Shown piece after piece: positions 1,784 through 14,300 of a DNA stretch of 64,000 nt (the first letter of the stretch is position 1; each line of letters starts with the position of its first letter). The notes beneath the pieces are model-generated. The model was given only the letters and a program-made list of their open reading frames with translations, searched no databases and was not told the DNA's origin. Both the position numbers and the translations under genes were made by a program. This stretch comes from Strigops habroptila (Eukaryota; Chordata; Aves; Psittaciformes; Psittacidae), in the NCBI RefSeq assembly GCF_004027225.2, contig NW_022651112.1, positions 62,001-126,000 of the forward strand. Direction: 5' to 3'.

Positions 1784-3770
1784 TCAGAGGGTGGCTTTAG
1801 CCTCGTTGTGCTGACTCATCCAGTATGCGGGATCCTTCCCTTGGATCTGGGGAGGGAAACAAAGTGGGGGGGTGTCAAATTGAGCCCCAGGCCCCCCCCA
1901 AAACCCGGGACCCCCCCCCAACATGGCCTCACCTTTGCCACAAAGTGCAGCACATCCATCTTGGAGGTCTCCTTGGCCGCCCTTGGCCCCCACTGGTACT
2001 TGAACTCGGGGGGGTCCGTCAAGGGGATGGGGGTGATCTCCAGGTACCTGCAAGGGGGTGATGGGGTGAACCCCCCCCCCAGTATGGTTGAGGGGTCCCC
2101 GGGGGGGGGGTGTCCAGCACTCCCCAGCCCTGCAACGGACCCTCAAGTCGCTGGGTGTGGGGGGGCTGCGGGGGTGTTTCTCTGCGGTGTGGTATAAACA
2201 GCCCAGCCAAGACTGGTGCTGTGGCTGCTCTGAGCACACCGGGGGGGGGAGGGACACACTTCAGGGTCCAGAAAAGGGGGGATCCCCCTCAAGACTCACT
2301 TCTGCCGCACAAACTCCTCTGTCACCAGCTTCTTGACGTCCCCAAAGACCTCGTGGCGCTCCCTGAGGGTGGGGGGGTCAATGAGCTGTGGCAGCAATGA
2401 ACCCTGCCCCCCCCCCATTATGTGGGTGTGTGTCCCCCCCATATCCTACCCTGGTTGTATGCGTAGCCTGCGGAGAAATTCCCACACAGCACCTGGGAAA
2501 AGGGGTGTCAATGGGGAGCACAAAGAGGAATTGGGGTACTGGGGGGGGTTGGGAGGAGCTCACCGTCTTTGACTGAGTTGCCTTTCATGAAGATGAAGCT
2601 GAGGATGACCATGAGGAGCCCCAGCTTCGCTGTCTGGTTGTCCCTATGGGAGACAGAGATGAGCAAAGAGGGGGGGGACACCCTGATGGGGTCTGTGTTC
2701 CCTGTGCCCCCCCCTCACCGGCGCAGGTTCTCCCCCTCGGTGCGGGGTATGGTGCTGGTGAGGATGTAAATGTGCTGCCTGGTGTCAATCTCCATCAACT
2801 GCAGCCCAAACACCTGCAGGAGGAGAAACGTTCATCTAACAGGGGGTGCCCCCACCCCAAAACTGCCCCCCCACTCCTGTTACCCCCCCCAACCTGCTGC
2901 AGGGTCCTGCCTGCCTGGTTGACAATCTCTGAGTAGACATCTCTGTATTCCCGGATGACTTTCTTCAGGATATCTACGGGGAAAGGGGAGGGAACCACTT
3001 GGATGCTTGAGCTCCCCCTCAGCAAGGTTTAGGGGGGGGTCCCCTAAACTCACCCGCCCTCTTGATGGGGATCTTCTTCTGGTCTTTGACAAGCAGGAAC
3101 TGAACGAGCTCACTGACCTGTGAGGGAAGAAGGGAGGGAAGGCTGAGAGCTGGGTGGTAGGAGAGGACCTGAGGCAGGAAGACATCGCCTGGGGTCGCCT
3201 GCACCCACCTTCTGATTCACTTGGTCCTGGGAGCGCCTCTCCAGGTTCCGCTGCACTTGGCTGCGCGGTAGCGTGGGGCTGAGGCTGAAATCGTCATCCC
3301 CATCCTCTGCCTGTGGGGAGAGAGCAGGGAGATGGTGGGGGTGGGGGGAGAGCCCACAGCCAGGGGGAAGGGGGGAGAAAAGTGGGGAGAAAGGGGGAAG
3401 AAGGAAAAGGGAGAAAAGGAGAAAAAAAAACAAAGGGGAAAGGGGGGAATACAGAGGAAAGAGAAAGGGAATAAGGGGGGGAAGAAAGTGAAATAAGGGG
3501 GGAAGGGGAAAGGAGAGAAGGGGAATAAGGGGGAAAGAAAGGGGGATAAGGGGGGGGAAGAAAGGGGGATAAGGGGGGGGAAGAAAGGGGGATAAGGGGG
3601 GGGAAGAAAGGGGGATAAGGGGGGAAGATAAATAAGACGGGAAGAAAGGGGAATAAGGGGAAGGGGAATGAGGGGGGAAAAGGGAGAACAGGTAAACAGG
3701 AAAGGGGGGCGGGAAAGCAGCCTCTTACCTGGGAGGGACCGGACCCTTTGGTGCGCTTCCTCTGGGACAT
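1784..3770 (-). CDS. NSMCE3: MAGE-family protein, NSMCE3-like (SMC5/6 complex subunit), ten exons
   Basis: Exons in coding order: 3729-3770, 3209-3310, 3054-3117, 2894-2973, 2719-2813, 2564-2643, 2450-2492, 2300-2362, 1933-2047 and 1784-1846. All junctions are GT-AG, the phases agree, and the total is 248 codons. The N-terminus (MSQRKRTKGSGPSQ, then an acidic AEDGDDDF patch) is disordered. The MAGE homology domain follows from about residue 45: VSELVQFLLVKDQKKIPIK, then ILKKVIREYRDVYSEI, HIYILTSTIPRTEGE, GLLMVILSFIFMKGN, VWEFLRRLRI and FKYQWGPRA. NSMCE3 binds the RING protein NSMCE1 and the kleisin NSMCE4 in the SMC5/6 genome-maintenance complex. That role is family knowledge, not visible here. 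Non-eutherian vertebrates have one MAGE gene with introns, and this fits it; its position corresponds to the mammalian MAGED cluster. The start codon is the first ATG and lies in a CpG-rich region. Confidence 0.9.
3330..3715. repeat. Purine-rich tract in MAGE intron 1
   Basis: Almost purely G/A on the + strand for about 380 bp. A short unit of about 22 bp (GATAAG, a G run, then AAGAAAG) is repeated roughly four times near 3,540-3,625. It fills most of the first intron. Confidence 0.8.
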
Positions 3771-4200
3771 TTCTCACACAGCCCTGAGGGTAAAAGCAGC
3801 GCCAAAACGGGCCGAAAGTGCTACGAGGCCGCTCCTACGGCCGTGCCCCACTTCATGGCGGCCGCGAACCGCTCCCGCGGCGACCGTTAAACCCACTCGG
3901 AGCCGCCGCCGCCGCCGCTTCCCTCAGCCCGCGCTCCCCCGCCCGACCCCCGCTCTGCGCATGCGCCCGCCGCGGCCCCGCCCACCCCACCTCCCATTGG
4001 CCCAAGCTCCGCCCTCTCCACGCCCACTCCCCCTTCTTCGCATCGCGATTGGACGAGCAGCCGCGCTCGCCCCGCCCCTTCGCACGTGCCGGGACGGCGG
4101 CCGCGAGGCTCTTGTGGCTACCTTACTGCCCCCCCCTCCCCGGGGTGGGGTGGGAGAAAAAGGCGGGAAACTTCCCCCTCTCACCCCGGTCCCTCAGGGC
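3771..4200 (-). promoter_or_regulatory. CpG-rich promoter of the MAGE gene
   Basis: Directly upstream of the MAGE start codon. It contains a perfect palindromic NRF1-type site TGCGCATGCGC at 3956-3966, two CCAAT boxes (ATTGG at 3996-4000 and 4048-4052), several CCGCCC GC boxes, and a CACGTG E-box at 4083-4088. This is typical of a TATA-less housekeeping promoter. No gene lies immediately on the other side, so it may be one-directional. Confidence 0.6.
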
Positions 4201-4560
4201 GACAAAATGGCGCCGCCATTAAAAACGAGATTAAAACACTCCCCAAAACACCCCAAACGGCCCATTTAACCCCTGTCCTCACCTAAATAATGGCAATTAA
4301 AGCACCTGTGTTGCCCCATCTCATATAATGAGCCTCTAAAGCCCTTCCCTCAGGGAGAAGAGGCAACAAAACGGCGCCCGGGGGTTCTGGCTGTTAAAAG
4401 CGAGGTTAAAACACCCCAAACCCACCCAAAACAACCCATTTATCCCCTGTCCTCACGTCAATAATGGCAATTAAAGCACCTGGTTTGCCCCATGCCTCGT
4501 AATGAGCCTCTGAAGCCCTTCCCTTAGGCAGGAGAAGAGGCAACAAAATGGCGGCCAGGG
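4200..4560. repeat. Tandem duplication of about 170 bp in the MAGE-GNL3L spacer
   Basis: A block starting CAACAAAATGGCG recurs at 4200, 4364 and 4541 (spacings 164 and 177). Shared internal text includes AATAATGGCAATTAAAGCACC, written here as AATAATGGC plus AATTAAAGCACC, and AATGAGCCTCT. Each copy starts with an ATGGCG-type (YY1-like) core. The rest of the spacer, 4,560-5,017, shows nothing I recognise. Confidence 0.75.
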
Positions 4561-5017
4561 CTGAGGGGACCTGCCCCAGCCTGGCAATGGGATATGGGGG
4601 GACCCTGATCCTTTTGGAGGTGTTTAAGGGGTGTTGGGGCCCCCAATGTGTGCTCCAAGGTGGCTTTTGGGGTGTTCTGAAGGGTTGGAGGGGGCACTTA
4701 CAGTCTTAATGGGGCAACACAGGCTGTCCTATAGGGGATGTGGAAGAGTAGGAGGTGGAAATGGGGTGCCTTAAGGTGCACCCCTCTGTTTAACCCCCCA
4801 ATTGAGCTCCCCTTGATCCCCATTTTCAGGCTTATTAAGCTGAATCAGCTGGAAAAGTGAGGTCCCCCCAAACCAGGGGACCTCATTCTGCTCTATGGGG
4901 TGAGCCCCCCCAAAACCATGAGCAGTTGGGTCTCCTTTTCCCACCCCAAACCCAAAGTCCTGCTTCAGACCCCCAAAATCACACCTCCCAGATACACCCC
5001 CATGTTGTGCCTGTGCT

Positions 5018-5091: not shown

Positions 5092-8000
5092 TCAGAACTG
5101 CATCGCCGCCTCCAGCGTCTCCGAAAGCTTCGTGGCAATCTTCTCTATGGGATGAATGGGATAAAAAAGGATTTGGGGGGGTTAAGGAAGGGTTTCTGGG
5201 TTGAAAAGGAGGATTTGGGGGGCTCACAGAGGGTTTTTGGGTTGGAAAGGAGGATTTGGGGGGGTTAAGGAAGGGTTTTTGGGTTGGAAAGGCAGATTTG
5301 GGGGGCTCAGGGAGGGTTTTTGGGTTGGAAAGGAGGATTTGGGGGGCTCAGGGAGGGTTTTTGGCTTGGAAATGAGGATTTGGGGGGCTCAAAGAGGGTT
5401 TTTGGGTTGGAAAGGAGGATTTGGGGGGCTCAAAGAGGGTTTTTGGGTTGGAAAGGAGGATTTGGGGGGCTCAGAGAGGCTTTTTGGGTTGGAAAGGAGG
5501 ATTTGAGGGGCTCAGGGAGGGTTTTTGGGTTGGAAAGGAGGATTTGGGGGGCTCAGAGAGGCTTTTTGGGTTGGAAAGGAGGATTTGGGGGGCTCAGGGA
5601 GGCTTTCTGGGTTGGAAAGGAGGATTTGGGGGGCTCAGGGAGGGCTTTTGGGTTGGAAAGGAGGATTTGGGGGGGTTAAGGAAGGGTTTTTGGGTTGGAA
5701 AGGCAGATTTGGGGGGCTTAGGGTGGGTTTTGGGTTGGAAAGGAGGATTTGGGGGGCTCAGGGAGGGTTTTTGAGTTGAAAAAAGGCTTTTTCTTTACTT
5801 ACCTGCTCTTTTTTGCAGCTTTTTCCTCCTTTTGCTGGCTGCCTGCAGCCCCTGTCCCTGCAGCAGAGGGTGGAGAGCAGCCACCTCCTCCAACCGGGGG
5901 GCACGGGGCATGGGACCCTCCCCATTGCCCCCCGTCTTCACCCGGGGGGGCTTCAGCTCCACTGTCACTGCACCAAGCTGGGGTTGGGGGAGGTCAATAA
6001 TAAACCTATGACCCCCCCCCCAAACCCCATTCCTATATCTCATCATACCCCCAATTCCTCCCATACCTCCAGGTCATCATCATCCTCCTCCATGGCTGCT
6101 TCTTCATCCCCACTGGACTTCACCTCCTCTTCCTCCTCAGGGACACATGGGGCCAGCCCTATGCCTGGCACCGTCACCGGTACAGCTATGGGGGGGGGTC
6201 AGTGAGCTTTGGGGGGGTCACCCCAGGGTGGGAAATGGGGGAGGATGCTCCAGTTCTCACCCGCCAGCGCCTCGGCATCGCCCCGCTCCAGCGCTTCCAG
6301 GTCAAACGCTGGCCCCAGCGTTGTCAGGATTTGGGCTTCCAAATGCACCCCCTGTGTTTCGGGGGGGTGGGTGTAGTAGGAGATCTTGCCGCTGTGGTGG
6401 GAAAGGGGGGGGTCAGGGTGTGGAGACCCCCCCAAAATGGGTTAGGGTGTGGGGAGACAACCCCCCCCGCCCTTCAAAAGGGGGTCAGGGTATGGGGCGA
6501 CCAACCTCAGCCCCCCAAAATGATGGCCAGAGTGTAGGAAGACCCCCCCAAAACCAGGGTCAGGGTGTGGAAAGACCCTCCCAGCCCCCCAAAAGTGGGT
6601 CAGGGTGTGGAGAGACCCACTCCTGTCCACCCAAAGTGGGTCAGGGTATGGGGAAACCCTCTCACAGTCCCCCCCAGAATGGGTCAGGAGGTGGGGAAGA
6701 TCCTCCCAGCCCCCCAGATGTGGGTCAGGGTGTTCAGAGCCCCCCCAAAAGCATTGCCCCCCGCTGCCCCACCTGGTCCAGTCACGCAGCAGGGCCACAG
6801 CAGCAGCGTGGGGGTCCGGGAGCCCCCCCGGCCGGAGCCGGCCCTGCCGCCGGGCCAGATGGGACAGGAACTGCCGGGGGTCATCGCAGGGGGGGACCCC
6901 ATAGAGCTCGCTCAGCTGTTTGGGGGGGACACACATGGGGTCTTGTCACCCCCTTCTGGGCTGGTGTCACCCCACAGCTCCCGTTCCTCCCTTTGGCTCC
7001 CCGTTTTGGGGACAAACTGGGATGGAAATGGCAACCCTCCATGTTGCCATGGTGATGGGGGGGGTCCCATAGCAACAGGGCTGAGCCCTCCCGGGGGTTC
7101 CCCAATGTGCCTAGTTGCCATGGCAACGGGTCTGAGGGTCCCCAGGCACCCCCAGTCACCATGGCGACAGGCCTGAGCACCATGGGGGGATTCCCAACAC
7201 CCTTAGTTGCCATGGCGACAGGTCTGAGCCCCCAAGGGGGACTCCCAACACCCTTAGTTGCCATGGCGACAGGTCTGAGCCTTCAAAAGGGGCATCCCCA
7301 ACATGCCTAGTTGCCATGGCAACGGGTCTAAGCCCCCCCAAGGGGGTTCCCAACACCCTTAGTTGCCATGACAACCGGTCTGAGCCCCCAAGGGGGATTC
7401 CCAACACCCCTAGTCACCACGACAACACCCCTAATCACCATGGCAACAGCCCCCCCCTACCTGCTGCGGGGGGCAGCGGCGCAGGATGGCAGCAGCGGGG
7501 GTCAGGGGGTCCCGCAGGCGCTGTGGGGCCAGAGCCCCCCGCAGTGGGGCAGCAGCGGGGGGGGCGCCCGTCTCCATGACAACGCCGGGGCAGTCCAACA
7601 GCTGGATGTGCCGGTCCAGCTGCACGGCCTGCAGGCACCTGGGGGCGTGGTCAGGGGGCGGGGCCTCGCAAGCCACGCCCCCTCCCACAGCAGGAGGTGT
7701 GGCCAATGCAGGCTCCACCCCCCTGGGGGGCGGGGCTTACCTGGTGACTCCCGGTGTTGCCCCCACCCCACAAGCCCGGCTCCGCTTCAGGCTGTTGATG
7801 AGGCTGCTCTTACCCACGTTGGGGTACCCTGGAGGGGGTGAACCATCAGTGGGGTGCCCCCAAAGCCCAGCACCCCTCTGCAGACCACTCCCATTGTCCC
7901 CATCCCACTGACCCATCCCACTCCCATTGTCCCCATCCCACTGACCCATCCCACTCCCATATCCCCATCCCACTCCCATATCCCCATCCCATTCCCACTG

Positions 8001-10379
8001 TCCCCATCCCACTCCCACTGTCCCCATCCCACTCCTATATTCCACTCCCATTATCCCCTTCCCACTCCCATTGTCCCCATCCCACTCCTGTTACCCCCTT
8101 CCCACTCCCATTATCCCCATCCCACTCCCGTTATCTCCTTCCCACTCCCATTGTCCCCATCCCACTCCTACATCCCCGTCCCACTCCTATATCCCCATCC
8201 CACTCCCATTATCCTCTTCCCACTCCCACATCCCCATCCCGCTCCCATTATCCCTATCCCACTCTCGTTATCCCCTTCCCACTCACCCACAACACCCACG
8301 GTGATGGTTGTTTTCACCTCCCCGGAGCGGCTGTAGTTGGCCAGGACACGGAGCAAACAGTCGGCTCCCACACAGGCTCCCCCGGCCAGGACCTCCTCTG
8401 GGGCCGTCGCCACCGGCAGCCGGCTCTGCTTCTGCATGAGGGGGGGTCCCCATTGTCCCTATGGCCCCTGTGACACCCCCAACCCCTTAAACACCCCCCC
8501 CTTTTCCCTTCCAGGCCCCCCACCAGGTTGCGGCTCTGCTGCTGCGTGCACGCCTTGAAGGCCACGGTGGGGAACTCTGCTCGCAGGTACTTCAGCCACG
8601 CCGCCACCACGTCCCGCGGCACCAGGTCTGGGGTGACAACGGACAGAAAGGGGGTGTCCCCCATCAATTGCTCGAAAAGGGGACCCCCAAACACCCCCCC
8701 CATCCTCCTGCTACCCCCCTGTACCGATCTTGTTGAGGACCAGCACCAGGCGCTGGCGGTGCCCGGCGCACCGGACGGCGGCTTCCAGCTGGGGGCTGCG
8801 GCAGCCCTGGGGGTCCCGGGCGTCCAGCACCTCCAGCACCACATCAGACGCTGTCAGCACCTGCCAAAGAGGGGGGTCACGGGGAGGGGAGACCCCCAAA
8901 CCCAACCCATGTCCCCCCAGTGCCACCTCCCCTGTGTGTGTCCCGGTGTCCGCATCGCACCCCAGTGACCTGCCCTTGTGTCCCCCCAGGGCCACCTCCC
9001 TACATCCCCATCCCACTCCCATGTCCCAGTGTCACCCCAGTGACCCGCCCTCAAGTCCCGTGTCCCCACACGCTTCCTCCCCCTATGTCCTCATGTTCCC
9101 ATCTCACTCCTGTTGTCTCCATCCCACTCGCATTGTCCCCATCCCACTCCGATTGTCCCCATCCCACTCCCCTGTCCCATCTCATTCCTATATCCCCATC
9201 TCATTCCCACTGTCCCTATACCACTCCTATATCCGAATCCCATTCCCACTGTCCCCATCCCACTCCTATATCCCAATCCCATTCCCATATCTCCATCCCC
9301 CTCCCATGTCCGAATCCCACTCCCATGTCTCCATCTCACTCCCATTGTCCCCTTCCCACTCCCATGTCCCCATCCCGCTCCCATGTTCCCATCCCACTCC
9401 CATTATCCTCACCCCACTCCCACTGTCCCAATCCCATTCCTATATCCCCTTCCCACTCCCATGTTCCCATCCCATTCCTATATCCCCATCTCATTCCCAC
9501 TGTCCCTATACCACTCCTATATCCCAATCCCATTCCCACTGTCCCCATCCCACTCTCATGTCCTCATCCCACTCCTACATCCCAATCCCACATCCCACTC
9601 CCATGTCTCCATCTCACTCCCACTGTCCCCTTCCCACTCCCCTGTCCCCATCCCACTCCCACTGTCCCACCCCTATATCCCAATCCCACCCCTCACCTTC
9701 CGCAGCTCCCTCCCGTACTGCCGCAGCGCCGCCTCCTCCTGCACATCCTGCCGGGCGCTCCCCCCCTCCTGCATAACCCCCATGTTACGGGGTGTGGGGA
9801 GGGAGACCCACACTTTGGGGGTGTCCCCCCCGCCCCCCCGGGGGTACCCGCACCCCGCACCTTGCGCTCGAACTCCCGCTGCCGCCGCAGCGCCTCGTGC
9901 TGCAGCGCCTCCAGGCTCCGCCGCCGGCTCCTCTCCGCCTCCCGCGCCCCCTCCCGCCGCTCCCGCGCCTCCGCTGCCTGCGGGGGGGGTGTGTGTGGAG
10001 GGGGGGGTCAGAACTTCGGGGGGACCCCCCCCCCCAACCCCATTGGTTTTACCCTTTTCTGCCTGTTCTCGTTCTGCTGCTGGACGTGGGCAGCGAAGCG
10101 GCGCAGCTGCGGCACCCCCGGGTCCTTCTTCCCTCCTCCCTTAGCGCGTTTTGCCTATGGGAATGGGGGGGGGGGTGTGTGACACCCCCAAACAGACCCG
10201 GTGTCCCCCCCCACCCCAGCGCATGGGCTCACCTGGACCCGCTTCTTCCGGGCAGCTTCCACTTGTCGCCCTGCGGAGGGGGGGGGCAGAGTGAGGGGGG
10301 GGGCTCCAACCCCCCCCCCCCCCCGAACCCCCAAATAACCCCCCCCGGTCCCCTCCAAGGACTCACGGGAGCGGGTCAT
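5092..10379 (-). CDS. GNL3L: Guanine nucleotide-binding protein-like 3-like, nucleolar GTPase, 15 exons
   Basis: Exons in coding order: 10367-10379, 10233-10270, 10053-10154, 9861-9977, 9697-9768, 8725-8860, 8524-8627, 8287-8431, 7741-7828, 7461-7638, 6773-6915, 6261-6391, 6067-6185, 5803-5977 and 5092-5144. All are in phase, giving 537 codons. A basic, coiled-coil-prone N-terminus is followed by a circularly permuted GTPase of the YRG/YlqF type: DARDP (G5), NKID (G4, split across two exons), GYPNVGKSS (G1), TPGVT (G2), DCPGV (G3). The C-terminus is [12 protein letters not shown]-like, as in GNL3L. GNL3L acts in ribosome biogenesis and nucleolar-nucleoplasmic shuttling (family knowledge). GNL3 (nucleostemin) is the alternative; the C-terminus and the neighbours favour GNL3L. 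An in-frame ATG at 10395-10397 would add six residues (MGGVSA). Confidence 0.93.
5178..5785. repeat. 41-bp minisatellite in the last GNL3L intron
   Basis: About 14-15 copies of a unit containing GGTTGGAAAGGAGGATTTGG and GGCTCAGGGAGGGTTTTT. The period was measured as 41 bp between 5281 and 5322. It fills almost the whole intron between exons 14 and 15. Confidence 0.9.
6410..6760. repeat. Minisatellite of about 38-43 bp in a GNL3L intron
   Basis: GGGTCAGGGTGTGG-type units recur near 6411, 6481, 6558, 6597, 6637, 6679 and 6722, separated by C-rich stretches. The array sits in the intron 6,392-6,772. Confidence 0.8.
7043..7447. repeat. 51-bp minisatellite carrying RFX X-box-like palindromes, GNL3L intron
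   Basis: Nine units, mostly 51-53 bp apart, each with GTTGCCATGGCAAC or a near match. They start at 7043, 7114, 7155, 7206, 7257, 7310, 7362, 7413 and 7434. The copies at 7114 and 7310 fit the RFX consensus GTNRCCNNRGYAAC exactly. The last copy ends 12 bp before the exon 10 donor. Confidence 0.85.
7880..8286. repeat. Pyrimidine-rich 20-bp-type repeat in a GNL3L intron
   Basis: CCCATCCCACTCCCATTGTC and variants (ATCC, GTCC, TATCC endings) run through the intron 7,829-8,286. The same monomer family occurs again at 9,010-9,690. Confidence 0.85.
9005..9690. repeat. Pyrimidine-rich 20-bp-type repeat in a second GNL3L intron
   Basis: Units such as CCCATCCCACTCCCATGTC and CCCACTCCTATATC fill the intron 8,861-9,696. 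They belong to the same family as the array at 7,880-8,286, although four exons lie between. Confidence 0.85.
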
Positions 10380-10496
10380 GGCTGAGACCCCCCCCACGTT
10401 GGAGCCGCGTTTCGCCTCGCTGCGGTGTCACTTCCGTCGCGACGGGAAAGGACCCGCGACACGAGGTTTAAACACGGGGCGTTCCGGCTGCCACGC

Positions 10497-10982
10497 TCAA
10501 GATGGCGACCGCAGCGTGACATCGACACGCTCAAAATGGCCGCTGCGGCATAGGGATACCCATAGTGCATTGAAACAAGGTGTGTTCCGGCTGCCACACT
10601 CAAGATGGCGGCCACACGGCATAGAACACTAATTGCCCTACTCAAGATGGCCGCCGCGCCGGCAGTGCCACACTCAAGATGGCCGCCGAAGCAATGTACT
10701 TTTATTGCCTCACTCAAGATGGCGGCCACAAGGCATAGAACGTTAATTCCCTACTCAAGTTGGGCGCCTCGCTGTCAGTGCCACACTCAAGATGGCGGCC
10801 ACCCTGTGCCACAGGCACACTCAAAATGGCGGCCAGAGGACAGAGAACGTTTATTGCCCTCCTCAAGATGGCCGCCGCGCCAGCAGTGCCACACTCAAGA
10901 TGGCGGACGAAGCAATGTACTTGCATTGCCACACTCAAGATGGCGACCACACCCTACCACAGCCCCCCCAAGATGGCGGCCG
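10497..10982 (-). promoter_or_regulatory. Cluster of about 13 YY1-type motifs upstream of GNL3L
   Basis: CAAGATGGCGGC or close variants begin near 10498, 10532, 10601, 10643, 10675, 10715, 10788, 10822, 10864, 10896, 10934 and 10969, all in one orientation on the + strand. A degenerate copy (CTCAAGTTGGGCGCC) lies at 10754. Spacing is about 33-43 bp, with one gap of about 68 bp. A higher-order unit of three motifs (106-114 bp) is marked by GGCATAGAAC at 10618 and 10732 and GGACAGAGAAC at 10838. The cluster lies 100-600 bp upstream of the GNL3L start, and downstream of the likely HUWE1 3' end. Confidence 0.85.
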
Positions 10983-11040
10983 CCCCTCCCCTCCCCCCCC
11001 CAAGAACGACCGGAACTGCCCTTACCAAGAGTGCACTTTT

Positions 11041-11046
11041 TTTATT
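11041..11046 (-). terminator. Candidate poly(A) signal AATAAA of HUWE1
   Basis: TTTATT on the + strand, 311 bp downstream of the HUWE1 stop on the - strand. The 3' UTR also holds a long A run (T run in sense) at about 11,252-11,271 and a short TA repeat near 11,290-11,302. Other TTTATT strings at about 10,700 and 10,850 lie in the YY1 array and are less likely. Confidence 0.5.
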
Positions 11047-11356: not shown

Positions 11357-14300
11357 CTAGGCCAGCCCGAAGCCCTCGGAGCACTCCTGGATGGCCAAGA
11401 GCAGCATGTGCCGCAGCTTCTCGTAGCTCTCGTAGGCCGGCAGGTCCAGCTGGTTGAAGCTGGGGGGACACAGGGACACCCCCAAAGTGGCTCAGGGACA
11501 GAGCTGCCTCCTGCGGGCCCCATGTGGCCCCCCCATGTCCTATGTCCTGTGTATTCCATATCCCATACCCCATATCCTGTGTCCCATGTCCAGTGTGTCC
11601 CATAACCCATGTCCCATATCCCATGTCCATATCCCATGTCCTATGTCCCATGTCCAGTGTGTCCCGTATCCATGTCCTGTGTCCCATATCCCATATCCCA
11701 TGTCCCACGTCCCATGTCCATATCCCATGTCCACGTACAGCGTTCCCATGTCCCATGTGTCCCATATTCCACGTCTCCTGTCCCATGTCCTGTGTCCCCA
11801 TGTCCCATATCCTATATCCCATATTCCATGTGGTCCCATGTCCTATATCCCATGTCCCATATCCTACATTCCACATCCCATGTGTCCCCATGTCCTATAT
11901 CATGTGTCCCATATGCTATATCCCACATCCCATGCGTCCCCATGATGTCCCATATCCCATGTCCCATATCCTGTATCCCATATCCCATGTGTCCCCATGT
12001 CCCATGTCCCATATCCCATGTCCCATGTCCTATATCCCATATCCCATGCATCCCCATGTCCCGTGTCTCCCATGTACCCTGTCCCACGTGGCCACATCCC
12101 ATGTCCTGTATCCCATGTGTCCCATATCTCACGTCCCGTGTCCATGTCTCCCGTCTCCCATGTCCCGCACACCCCCCGCATCCCGTACCAGGTGTGTGCA
12201 GAGGGCAGGCGGTCGGTGGAGCGGTCATCCCGGTGGATCTGGAACTTCTGGATCCCGTTCATCCCCTCCAGGGCAGCGAATCCCTGCAGCGGCACCTTGG
12301 ACGTGCCCGTCACGAACTGCAGGAACTTGGCCCTGTCCGCTTGGTCGAAGGACCTCAACGCTCTCCAGAACCACTGGATCTGAGGGGGGATCCACCACGA
12401 ACCCCTCAAACACCCCCAGGCTCAACACGTCGCTTTGGGGGTGTCTTGGGGGTGGTTTTGGGGTGGTTTAGGCTTTTCTGGGGTGTTTTGGGGTGGGTTT
12501 GGGTGGTTTGGGATGGTTTGCAGATGTTTCGGGGGTGTTTTGGGGTATTTGGGGGTATTTGAGGATGGGTTTGGGGTGCTTCTGGGTGTTTTGGGGGTGA
12601 TTTTGGGGTGTTTTAGGCTTTTCTGGGGTGTTTTGGGGTGGGTTTGGGTGGTTTGGGATGGTTTGCAGATGTTTCGGGGATGTTTTGGGGTATTTGGGGG
12701 TATTTGACGATGGGTTTGGGGTGTTTCTGGGTGTTTTGGGGGTGATTTTGGGCTGTTTTGAGCTGATTTTGGGGTGTTTTGGGGTGGTTCAGGGGTATTT
12801 TGGGATGGTTTTGGCGTAGTTTAGGATGGGTTTGGGGTGTTTTGGAGTGTTTTGTGATGTTCTGGGGTCTTTCTGGTGTGCCTTTAGAGTAATTTTGGGG
12901 TGGTTTTGGGCTCTTTGGGGGTGTTTTGGGGTGGTTTTGGGCTGATTTTGGGCTGGTTTGAGTAGTTTTGTGATGGTTTTTGGTGTTTTGGGGCGGTTTC
13001 GGTGTGTTCTGGGCTGATTTTGGGCTGTTCTGAGGTGTTTTGGCATGGTTTTCGGGTGTTTTGAGCTGATTCTGGGCTGTTTCGGGGTGTTCCCAAGTGT
13101 TTTCAGGATGTTCTGGGCTGTTTCGGGGTGTTCTGGGGGTGGTTTCGGGGCTGAAGCCCCACCTGGATGGAGTTCCCCTGGTACTTGTGGTACTCGGTGT
13201 TGGCTTTGAGGTCGTCGATGTCGATGGTCGGCAGCCCCGAGATGAGCAGCTCCAGCTCTTGCTCCGTGAAGATGGAGATGAGGCGTTTGGGGATGATCTC
13301 GTAGAAACCCTCCAAGAAGGCGGCGAGTTGCTTCCGAATGGCTCCTATGGGATAATGGGGAGGGGGTGGGGGGGGTGTGTCAAAGAAGGGGGTGTTGGGG
13401 ACCCCCCCCCCGCCCCCTCCTCAGGCCCCCCGGTGCTCACCGGTCATGCGCATCTGGCACACGAGGTGCACGTATTCCTTCTTGTTCTCCTCCGTCACCA
13501 GCACGTTGGCTCCGTTGGGCTTCAGGTCCCGAACCTCACACACCCCGAACTCCTGCACCTGGGGGGGGAGGGAAAAGAGGGGGGGGTCAGGGGATACCCC
13601 CCAAAGCACAGGGGACACCCCAGGGACACCACTGGAGTAGGGGGGGGACACCCCAAGCCAGGAGGACACCCCTGGGACACCCCCAGAACAAAGGGGACTT
13701 GAGGACACCCCAAGACAGAGGGGATCCCCCCCAGAATAAAGGGGACACCCCTGAGGTAGGGGGGACACCCCAGGGACAGAGGGGACACCCCCAGAATAAA
13801 GAGGACACCCCTGAGGTAGGGGGGACACCCCCAAAGCAGGAGAATAGCCCAGGATAAAGGGGACACCGCTGGGACACCACTGGAGCAGGGGGGACACCTC
13901 AAACCCAGGAGGACACCCCCAGAACAGAGGAGACCCCTCTGGGACACGGGGACACCTCTGGGACTTGAGGACACCCCCAAACAAGGAGGACACCCCAGGA
14001 CAAAGGGGACACCCCAAGAACAGGGGAGACCCCTCTGGGACTTGGGGACACCATTGAAGCAAGGGGGGATACCCCCAAAGCAGGAGGACACCCCAGGACA
14101 GAGGGGACACCCCTGGCACATGGGGACACCAAGTCCCTGGTAGCAGCATGAGGGAGGTTTGGGGGTGATGGGGGGACCCCGTGGCTGGGTTTTGGGGGGT
14201 CTCCGGGGGGGGGGGGTGACAGGTACCTCAGTGCTGAAGGTGAGGTCGTAGCCCAAGGTGGAGACATCGTTCTCCAGCAGATAGACCAGGCCCTGGTAGA

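Follow-up and report, generated by a model that had tools for sequence, protein, structure and literature searches.

Sequence stuttering has been described for introns and exon edges of chicken dot chromosomes, on which it is concentrated (190 of 236 exon-stuttering introns), and the main text of that report never uses the word "promoter" (PMC12954441). Dot chromosomes have a very high GC content and an excess of housekeeping genes (PMC9974502). YY1 binds the promoter element TISU in extracts and also, in vivo, at a promoter (PMC2518114). In the account given for Peg3, control regions carry 4-10 CTCF or YY1 sites each, in one orientation, and when seven YY1 sites were mutated, expression of Peg3 and Usp29 fell and that of Zim1 rose, with methylation unchanged (PMC5526879).

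We analyzed a 64-kb stretch (the window; C84:62001-126000) of a 1.1486-Gb genome comprising 89 contigs. Contig C84 (460,413 bases) is GC-rich and laden with tandem repeats, 351 tandem-repeat rows being found in the window; these properties, together with its small size and gene density, suggest that it probably belongs to a dot chromosome of a bird. Scanning the window with CAAGATGGCGGC, allowing up to three mismatches, revealed 13 plus-strand matches at 10498-10980, of which four are exact, seven carry one mismatch, one carries two and one carries three. The minus strand of the same interval holds a single three-mismatch match, at 10795, which overlaps a plus-strand site. The sites are spaced 32-42 bp apart except for a single gap of 69 bp; the original prediction gave 33-43 bp. 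The pattern AAGATGGCGGC (up to two mismatches) has 28 matches in the window, 12 of them within the array; since shuffling predicts 18.2 over the whole 64 kb, matches are far denser here than chance would allow. Tandem Repeats Finder reported a period of 114 with 3.2 copies at 10592-10951, and the array can be divided into higher-order units of 114, 107 and 114 bp with three sites each, the unit boundaries being our choice:

10498 to 10980, plus strand: array of 13 CAAGATGGCGGC-like (YY1/TISU-type) sites in one orientation, from motif scans
10593 to 10706, plus strand: higher-order unit 1, three sites, from repeat finding and unit alignment
10707 to 10813, plus strand: higher-order unit 2, three sites, one with three mismatches, from repeat finding and the motif scan
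10814 to 10927, plus strand: higher-order unit 3, three sites, from repeat finding and unit alignment

The prediction of about 13 YY1-type motifs, all in one orientation and grouped in a three-motif unit of 106-114 bp, therefore agrees with what we measured. A coding repeat was ruled out for this array, as only four of 11 spacings are multiples of three.

The array lies between two genes on the minus strand. On one side, the frame 11900-12421 matches HUWE1 at 3.5e-39 and also matches HECT, identifying a C-terminal exon. On the other, one GTPase exon matches MMR_HSR1, and we take the remaining exons of that gene to be those of GNL3L. The following elements were read directly from the sequence:

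11357 to 11359, minus strand: HUWE1 stop codon, closing the last coding exon (11357-11491), HUWE1 being named through the neighbouring exon
11205, minus strand, and 11088, plus strand: further G-rich GGGGAGGGG elements
11041 to 11046, minus strand: AATAAA, presumed HUWE1 poly(A) signal
10983 to 10996, minus strand: two GGGGAGGGG copies that overlap, immediately beyond the point where HUWE1 transcripts are presumed to be cleaved
10850 to 10855, minus strand: AATAAA in an array spacer
10701 to 10706, minus strand: AATAAA in an array spacer
10585 to 10612, minus strand: second YY1-type/CCGGAA pair
10482 to 10509, minus strand: YY1-type site followed by ETS-like CCGGAA, the pair closest to GNL3L
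10431 to 10436, minus strand: ETS-like CGGAAG, lying between the array and the start codon
10377 to 10379, minus strand: predicted GNL3L start codon, the gene name being partly presumed, with one exon matching MMR_HSR1

Read along the minus strand, the order is thus AATAAA at 11041, the two GGGGAGGGG copies, the array, CCGGAA at 10585 and 10482, CGGAAG at 10431 and the start codon. The placement first proposed, between the GNL3L start and the HUWE1 3' end, is correct: the HUWE1 poly(A) signal and the GNL3L start codon are 662 bp apart, and the array fills 483 bp of this interval. Its sites lie on the plus strand, antisense to GNL3L, a point that the original prediction does not make. A plus-strand CCGGAA is also present at 11010. 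The string formed by a YY1 site, GAG(T/C)GTGGCAGC and CCGGAAC closest to GNL3L is repeated at 10585, which would suit a local source of the array.

The candidate roles for such an array are a promoter element, a partition between HUWE1 and GNL3L, and an insulator, each of them possible. As a partition, YY1-bound sites following the HUWE1 poly(A) signal and the G-rich element would slow or halt read-through polymerase and shield the GNL3L promoter. Where genes lie close together, polymerase can be made to pause between them by G-rich elements of the GGGGAGGGG type, and here the poly(A) signal, two GGGGAGGGG copies, array and GNL3L promoter follow one another on one strand within 662 bp, with two additional AATAAA in the spacers. 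These spacer signals, however, are not retained in the other unit copies, and the arrays of six named genes elsewhere in the genome stand on the sense side; we consider such a partition improbable.

Several other features were observed in the window. A tandem GTTGCCATGGCAAC/GAC array of 51-bp period lies at 7100-7460, between GNL3L exons; we take it to resemble the RFX X-box, and its gaps fall just beyond the range of the genome-wide RFX search described below. Past the 3' end of GNL3L and before the next gene, at 4160-4570, are about three diverged plus-strand copies with AAAATGGCGCC, AACGGCGCC and AAAATGGCGGC. Plus-strand exons at 521-1172 and 2795-3216 have histidine-phosphatase matches and are presumably PFKFB-like; minus-strand frames, which we assume to be MAGE-like, had no match to any Pfam family.

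Same-orientation arrays of this type are found elsewhere in the genome, which the original prediction, made on a single stretch, could not show. A search for three copies of AARATGGCSGC separated by gaps of 16-46 gave 48 matches genome-wide, and the reversed pattern gave none. Grouped by eye, the matches fall into 14 loci of the 1.15-Gb genome, on contigs C9, C12, C20, C23, C26, C27, C31, C38, C39, C43, C77, C78 (two) and C84. Triples with the middle site reversed were absent genome-wide in a pattern search with the same gaps (16-46). Same-orientation pairs number 108 genome-wide and represent at least 41 loci plus C84 among the 100 matches listed; pairs of opposite orientation occur at one convergent and seven divergent places, two of these eight falling inside array loci (C39 and C31:34446). 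The C39 locus (L047:4437-5528) contains back-to-back arrays of opposite orientation, five plus-strand sites followed by 24 minus-strand sites. A 16-base motif of the GNL3L array, CACTCAAGATGGCGGC, has three matches there and five elsewhere in other surroundings, leading to five more loci with clusters of 2, 3, 2, 5 and 3 sites.

When 15 arrays were compared with their motifs masked, only two of 105 pairs shared sequence at E 1e-3 (a strong match for L045/L051, and one of 45 bases for L042/L043), and the masked GNL3L array matched none of the 14 others. Most arrays therefore probably arose separately, and their origins are probably independent for the most part. A single dispersed repeat family as their source was rejected for most arrays on the same count. 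Nine of the 14 triple loci lie on contigs shorter than 1 Mb and five on contigs longer than 1 Mb. At least 20 contigs exceed 1 Mb, so the rest hold at most 69 Mb, or 6% of the genome; with this upper bound the binomial probability of nine loci is 1.5e-8.

Searches named the genes beside six of the other arrays as METTL3, RBM8A, TXNL1, IGBP1, TPGS1 and VPS16. For TPGS1 the naming rests on RIIa above the cut-off and TPGS1_C below it, and for VPS16 on a Vps16_N match; a PDB search with the VPS16 neighbour gave no match. EIF4E2 presumably lies beside L054. With start codons placed by eye, all six named genes are downstream of their arrays in the orientation of the motif, and GNL3L faces the opposite way. 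At the C27 array a zinc-finger frame lies on the other side from the motif direction, and at the C43 array a PP2A-family phosphatase exon is found on the opposite strand about 3 kb away. Pfam gave no telling match in the frames tried near C12, C20, C38, C39, C77, C31, C78b, C6 and C19.

The orientation of the named genes bears on a further reading. The GNL3L array sites face HUWE1 and so may start plus-strand transcription, at about 10980-11030, into the HUWE1 3' end, as the six-for-six downstream position of the named genes and the plus-strand CCGGAA at 11010 would suit. The composition of the flanks speaks against such a promoter, GC content and CpG ratio being higher on the GNL3L side (0.69 and 0.64) than on the HUWE1 side (0.56 and 0.52), as does the finding of no coding frame of interest on the HUWE1 side. 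Promoter YY1 sites have, moreover, been published in either orientation (PMC2518114), and we consider antisense initiation very improbable. The same genes weigh upon the likeness to imprinted and X-inactivation loci drawn in the original prediction. Site number and single orientation do resemble those of imprinting-control clusters such as that at Peg3 (PMC5526879), and this part of the likeness holds. The class also adjoins six ordinary genes, for which reason we set the analogy aside, and mutating seven Peg3 sites altered expression, not methylation (PMC5526879); an imprinting-control role is close to negligible in our estimate.

Individual arrays have features of their own. In the METTL3 array (L050:4790-5449) most units combine YY1-type and RFX half-site motifs. 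Units at L046:4813-5071 carry YY1-type sites, with ATTGGC, which we assume to be CCAAT-box-like, in several spacers. The C31 array (L045:4657-6429) is contained in a 590-residue open frame with KMAA repeats. Spacings are multiples of three in 34 of 34 cases in L045 and in 21 of 24 in the related L051 array (C78); other frames are open too in both, and the L045/L051 frames gave no Pfam match. L045 may be a coding repeat, in which case conservation of its sites is possibly that of coding sequence.

The behaviour of other promoter motifs indicates how far amplification is particular to YY1. Counted as single sites genome-wide, YY1 has 1443 matches (68 for the reversed pattern), NRF1 684 (22 reversed) and ETS 918; because the reversed ETS pattern has 3124, ETS is not enriched by this measure. 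NRF1 triples occur at two places and ETS triples at none. The excess of YY1 triples is significant against NRF1 and ETS pooled (p=0.0016) and not significant against NRF1 alone (p=0.11). The RFX half-site GTTGCCATGG, searched with gaps of 10-40 rather than the 16-46 used for the other motifs, gave 27 triples at about 10 loci, the METTL3 array being one of them, and none when reversed. Amplification is therefore not confined to YY1.

To compare the sites with their spacers, mismatches between copies were counted at the repeat lag. In the GNL3L array the core differs at 14 of 113 positions and the spacer at 64 of 240 (p=0.0024), whereas unit 1 compared with unit 3 without gaps (core 3/33, spacer 12/81) is not clear alone; the earlier impression that the core is better kept than the spacer thus holds at the repeat lag and is indistinct between these units. 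Lag and pseudo-core tests covered 14 of 19 clusters, L041, L052, L053, L054 and L056 being excluded as too short, and used different lags for L039 and L055. Pooled over the 14 arrays, mismatches number 250/1853 in the core and 1102/3891 in the spacer; the core rate is the lower in 13 of the 14, with p<0.05 in nine. In L046 the counts are 1/44 in the core and 40/110 in the spacer, and the trend is reversed in the TXNL1 array (15/109 and 28/220). The core rate is below the mean pseudo-core rate in all 14 arrays and below every pseudo-core in 11, with little advantage in C77 and C19 and with a single usable pseudo-core for the GNL3L array. In phase profiles of ten of the 19 clusters, the GNL3L array not among them, the core takes first or second place among the 11-base windows in eight; it ranks fourth in C39 and eleventh in TXNL1. 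Twenty-five ordinary arrays of the window have well-kept 11-base windows too, with contrasts of up to 0.171, a value exceeded by four of the ten motif arrays; expressed as a ratio, the contrast does not set the motif arrays apart. All of these comparisons concern arrays ascertained through intact motifs, with phases anchored on those motifs. Judged from these substitution patterns, it is likely that selection keeps the YY1-type sites while the spacers drift.

The same data bear on the possibility of neutral stuttering, in which a promoter fragment expanded like any minisatellite and the copies beyond the original site are idle. The discovery of arrays through intact sites could by itself produce apparent site retention, tandem arrays abound in the window (351 rows), ordinary arrays share the well-kept windows, RFX half-site arrays exist, and GNL3L units 1 and 3 differ unclearly (3/33 against 12/81). 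Ordinary promoter motifs of similar number, however, form few triples (NRF1 at two places for 684 sites, ETS at none for 918), and the core ranks first or second among windows in eight of ten arrays and is below every pseudo-core in 11 of 14. We regard idle copies as unlikely, while giving the idea appreciable weight.

For the observed repeat, its observed location and the genome-wide same-orientation class with mostly unrelated spacers, we lean, with some reserve, towards an array that is a locally amplified piece of promoter, expanded by a stuttering-like process, whose copies probably bind YY1. The source would be a fragment with one YY1-type and one ETS-like site beside GNL3L, the module closest to the gene. 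Local expansion of the sequence-stuttering kind would have copied it upstream in two stages, producing monomers of 32-42 bp and later a three-site unit, and filling most of the space up to the HUWE1 3' end. The copies would bind YY1 and, so bound, keep open the interval that separates the end of HUWE1 transcription from the start of that of GNL3L, while selection would retain the sites and let the spacers drift. Counting against this proposal are the TXNL1 core, which has no advantage, the antisense position of the GNL3L array, unlike those of the six named genes, the ascertainment of arrays through intact sites, the well-kept windows of ordinary arrays, the RFX half-site arrays, the non-significant YY1 excess over NRF1 alone, and the five loci on contigs longer than 1 Mb.

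Similar arrays beside other genes hint that this kind of switch has been multiplied repeatedly. In a broader and more doubtful reading, which we put forward tentatively, they would be repeat-amplified bird promoter switches, in which YY1 or RFX sites were multiplied independently beside housekeeping genes, selection keeps the sites as spacers drift, and site number tunes output. METTL3, RBM8A, TXNL1 and GNL3L would be examples, and by the same tentative reading site number would vary between individuals and species. If the amplified-promoter account of the GNL3L array is true, the stuttering of dot-chromosome introns extends to promoters, and a natural series of one-orientation YY1-site numbers stands beside several housekeeping genes. 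The effect of YY1-site number and orientation on a promoter would become testable, as would the question of whether repeat instability on bird microchromosomes alters gene output. Among the openly licensed papers listed in our searches, none described YY1 arrays at promoters of birds or the stuttering of a promoter, and none joined GNL3L, HUWE1 and chicken; the main text of a chicken-promoter paper (PMC4203960) contains neither "YY1" nor "ATGGCGGC".

Each of the closest described systems shares part of these properties. The mouse LINE-1 Tf monomer promoter is likewise built of tandem units, and YY1 is a reported activator there, but LINE-1 Tf is a mobile element and the GNL3L array consists of 32-42 bp units at a host gene (PMC11602158). 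A cluster in the first intron of YY1 also combines clustered YY1 sites with unconserved spacers (PMC2743690); it differs in that its five sites span about 100 bp, have mixed orientations that are conserved, and do not form a tandem repeat. Peg3 clusters have, like this array, many YY1-type sites in a single orientation (PMC5526879), whereas the GNL3L array is a dense tandem repeat with 13 sites in less than 500 bp and belongs to a class found beside ordinary genes. With TISU the array shares the sequence, including the consensus of the YY1 promoter element, and the single orientation, TISU being bound by YY1 (PMC2518114). TISU, however, lies downstream of the start site and contains the start codon (PMC2518114); the GNL3L sites are upstream and antisense, and the start codon at 10377-10379 falls outside the array. 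With stuttering the array shares imperfect local tandem copies, tens to hundreds of bases long. Stuttering affects formerly unique sequence on small gene-dense chromosomes (PMC12954441), as the sequence copied here presumably was and as C84 probably is; unlike in published stuttering, the copied sequence here would be a promoter fragment with a transcription-factor site. In its local, imperfect tandem copies the array fits stuttering, here of a promoter.
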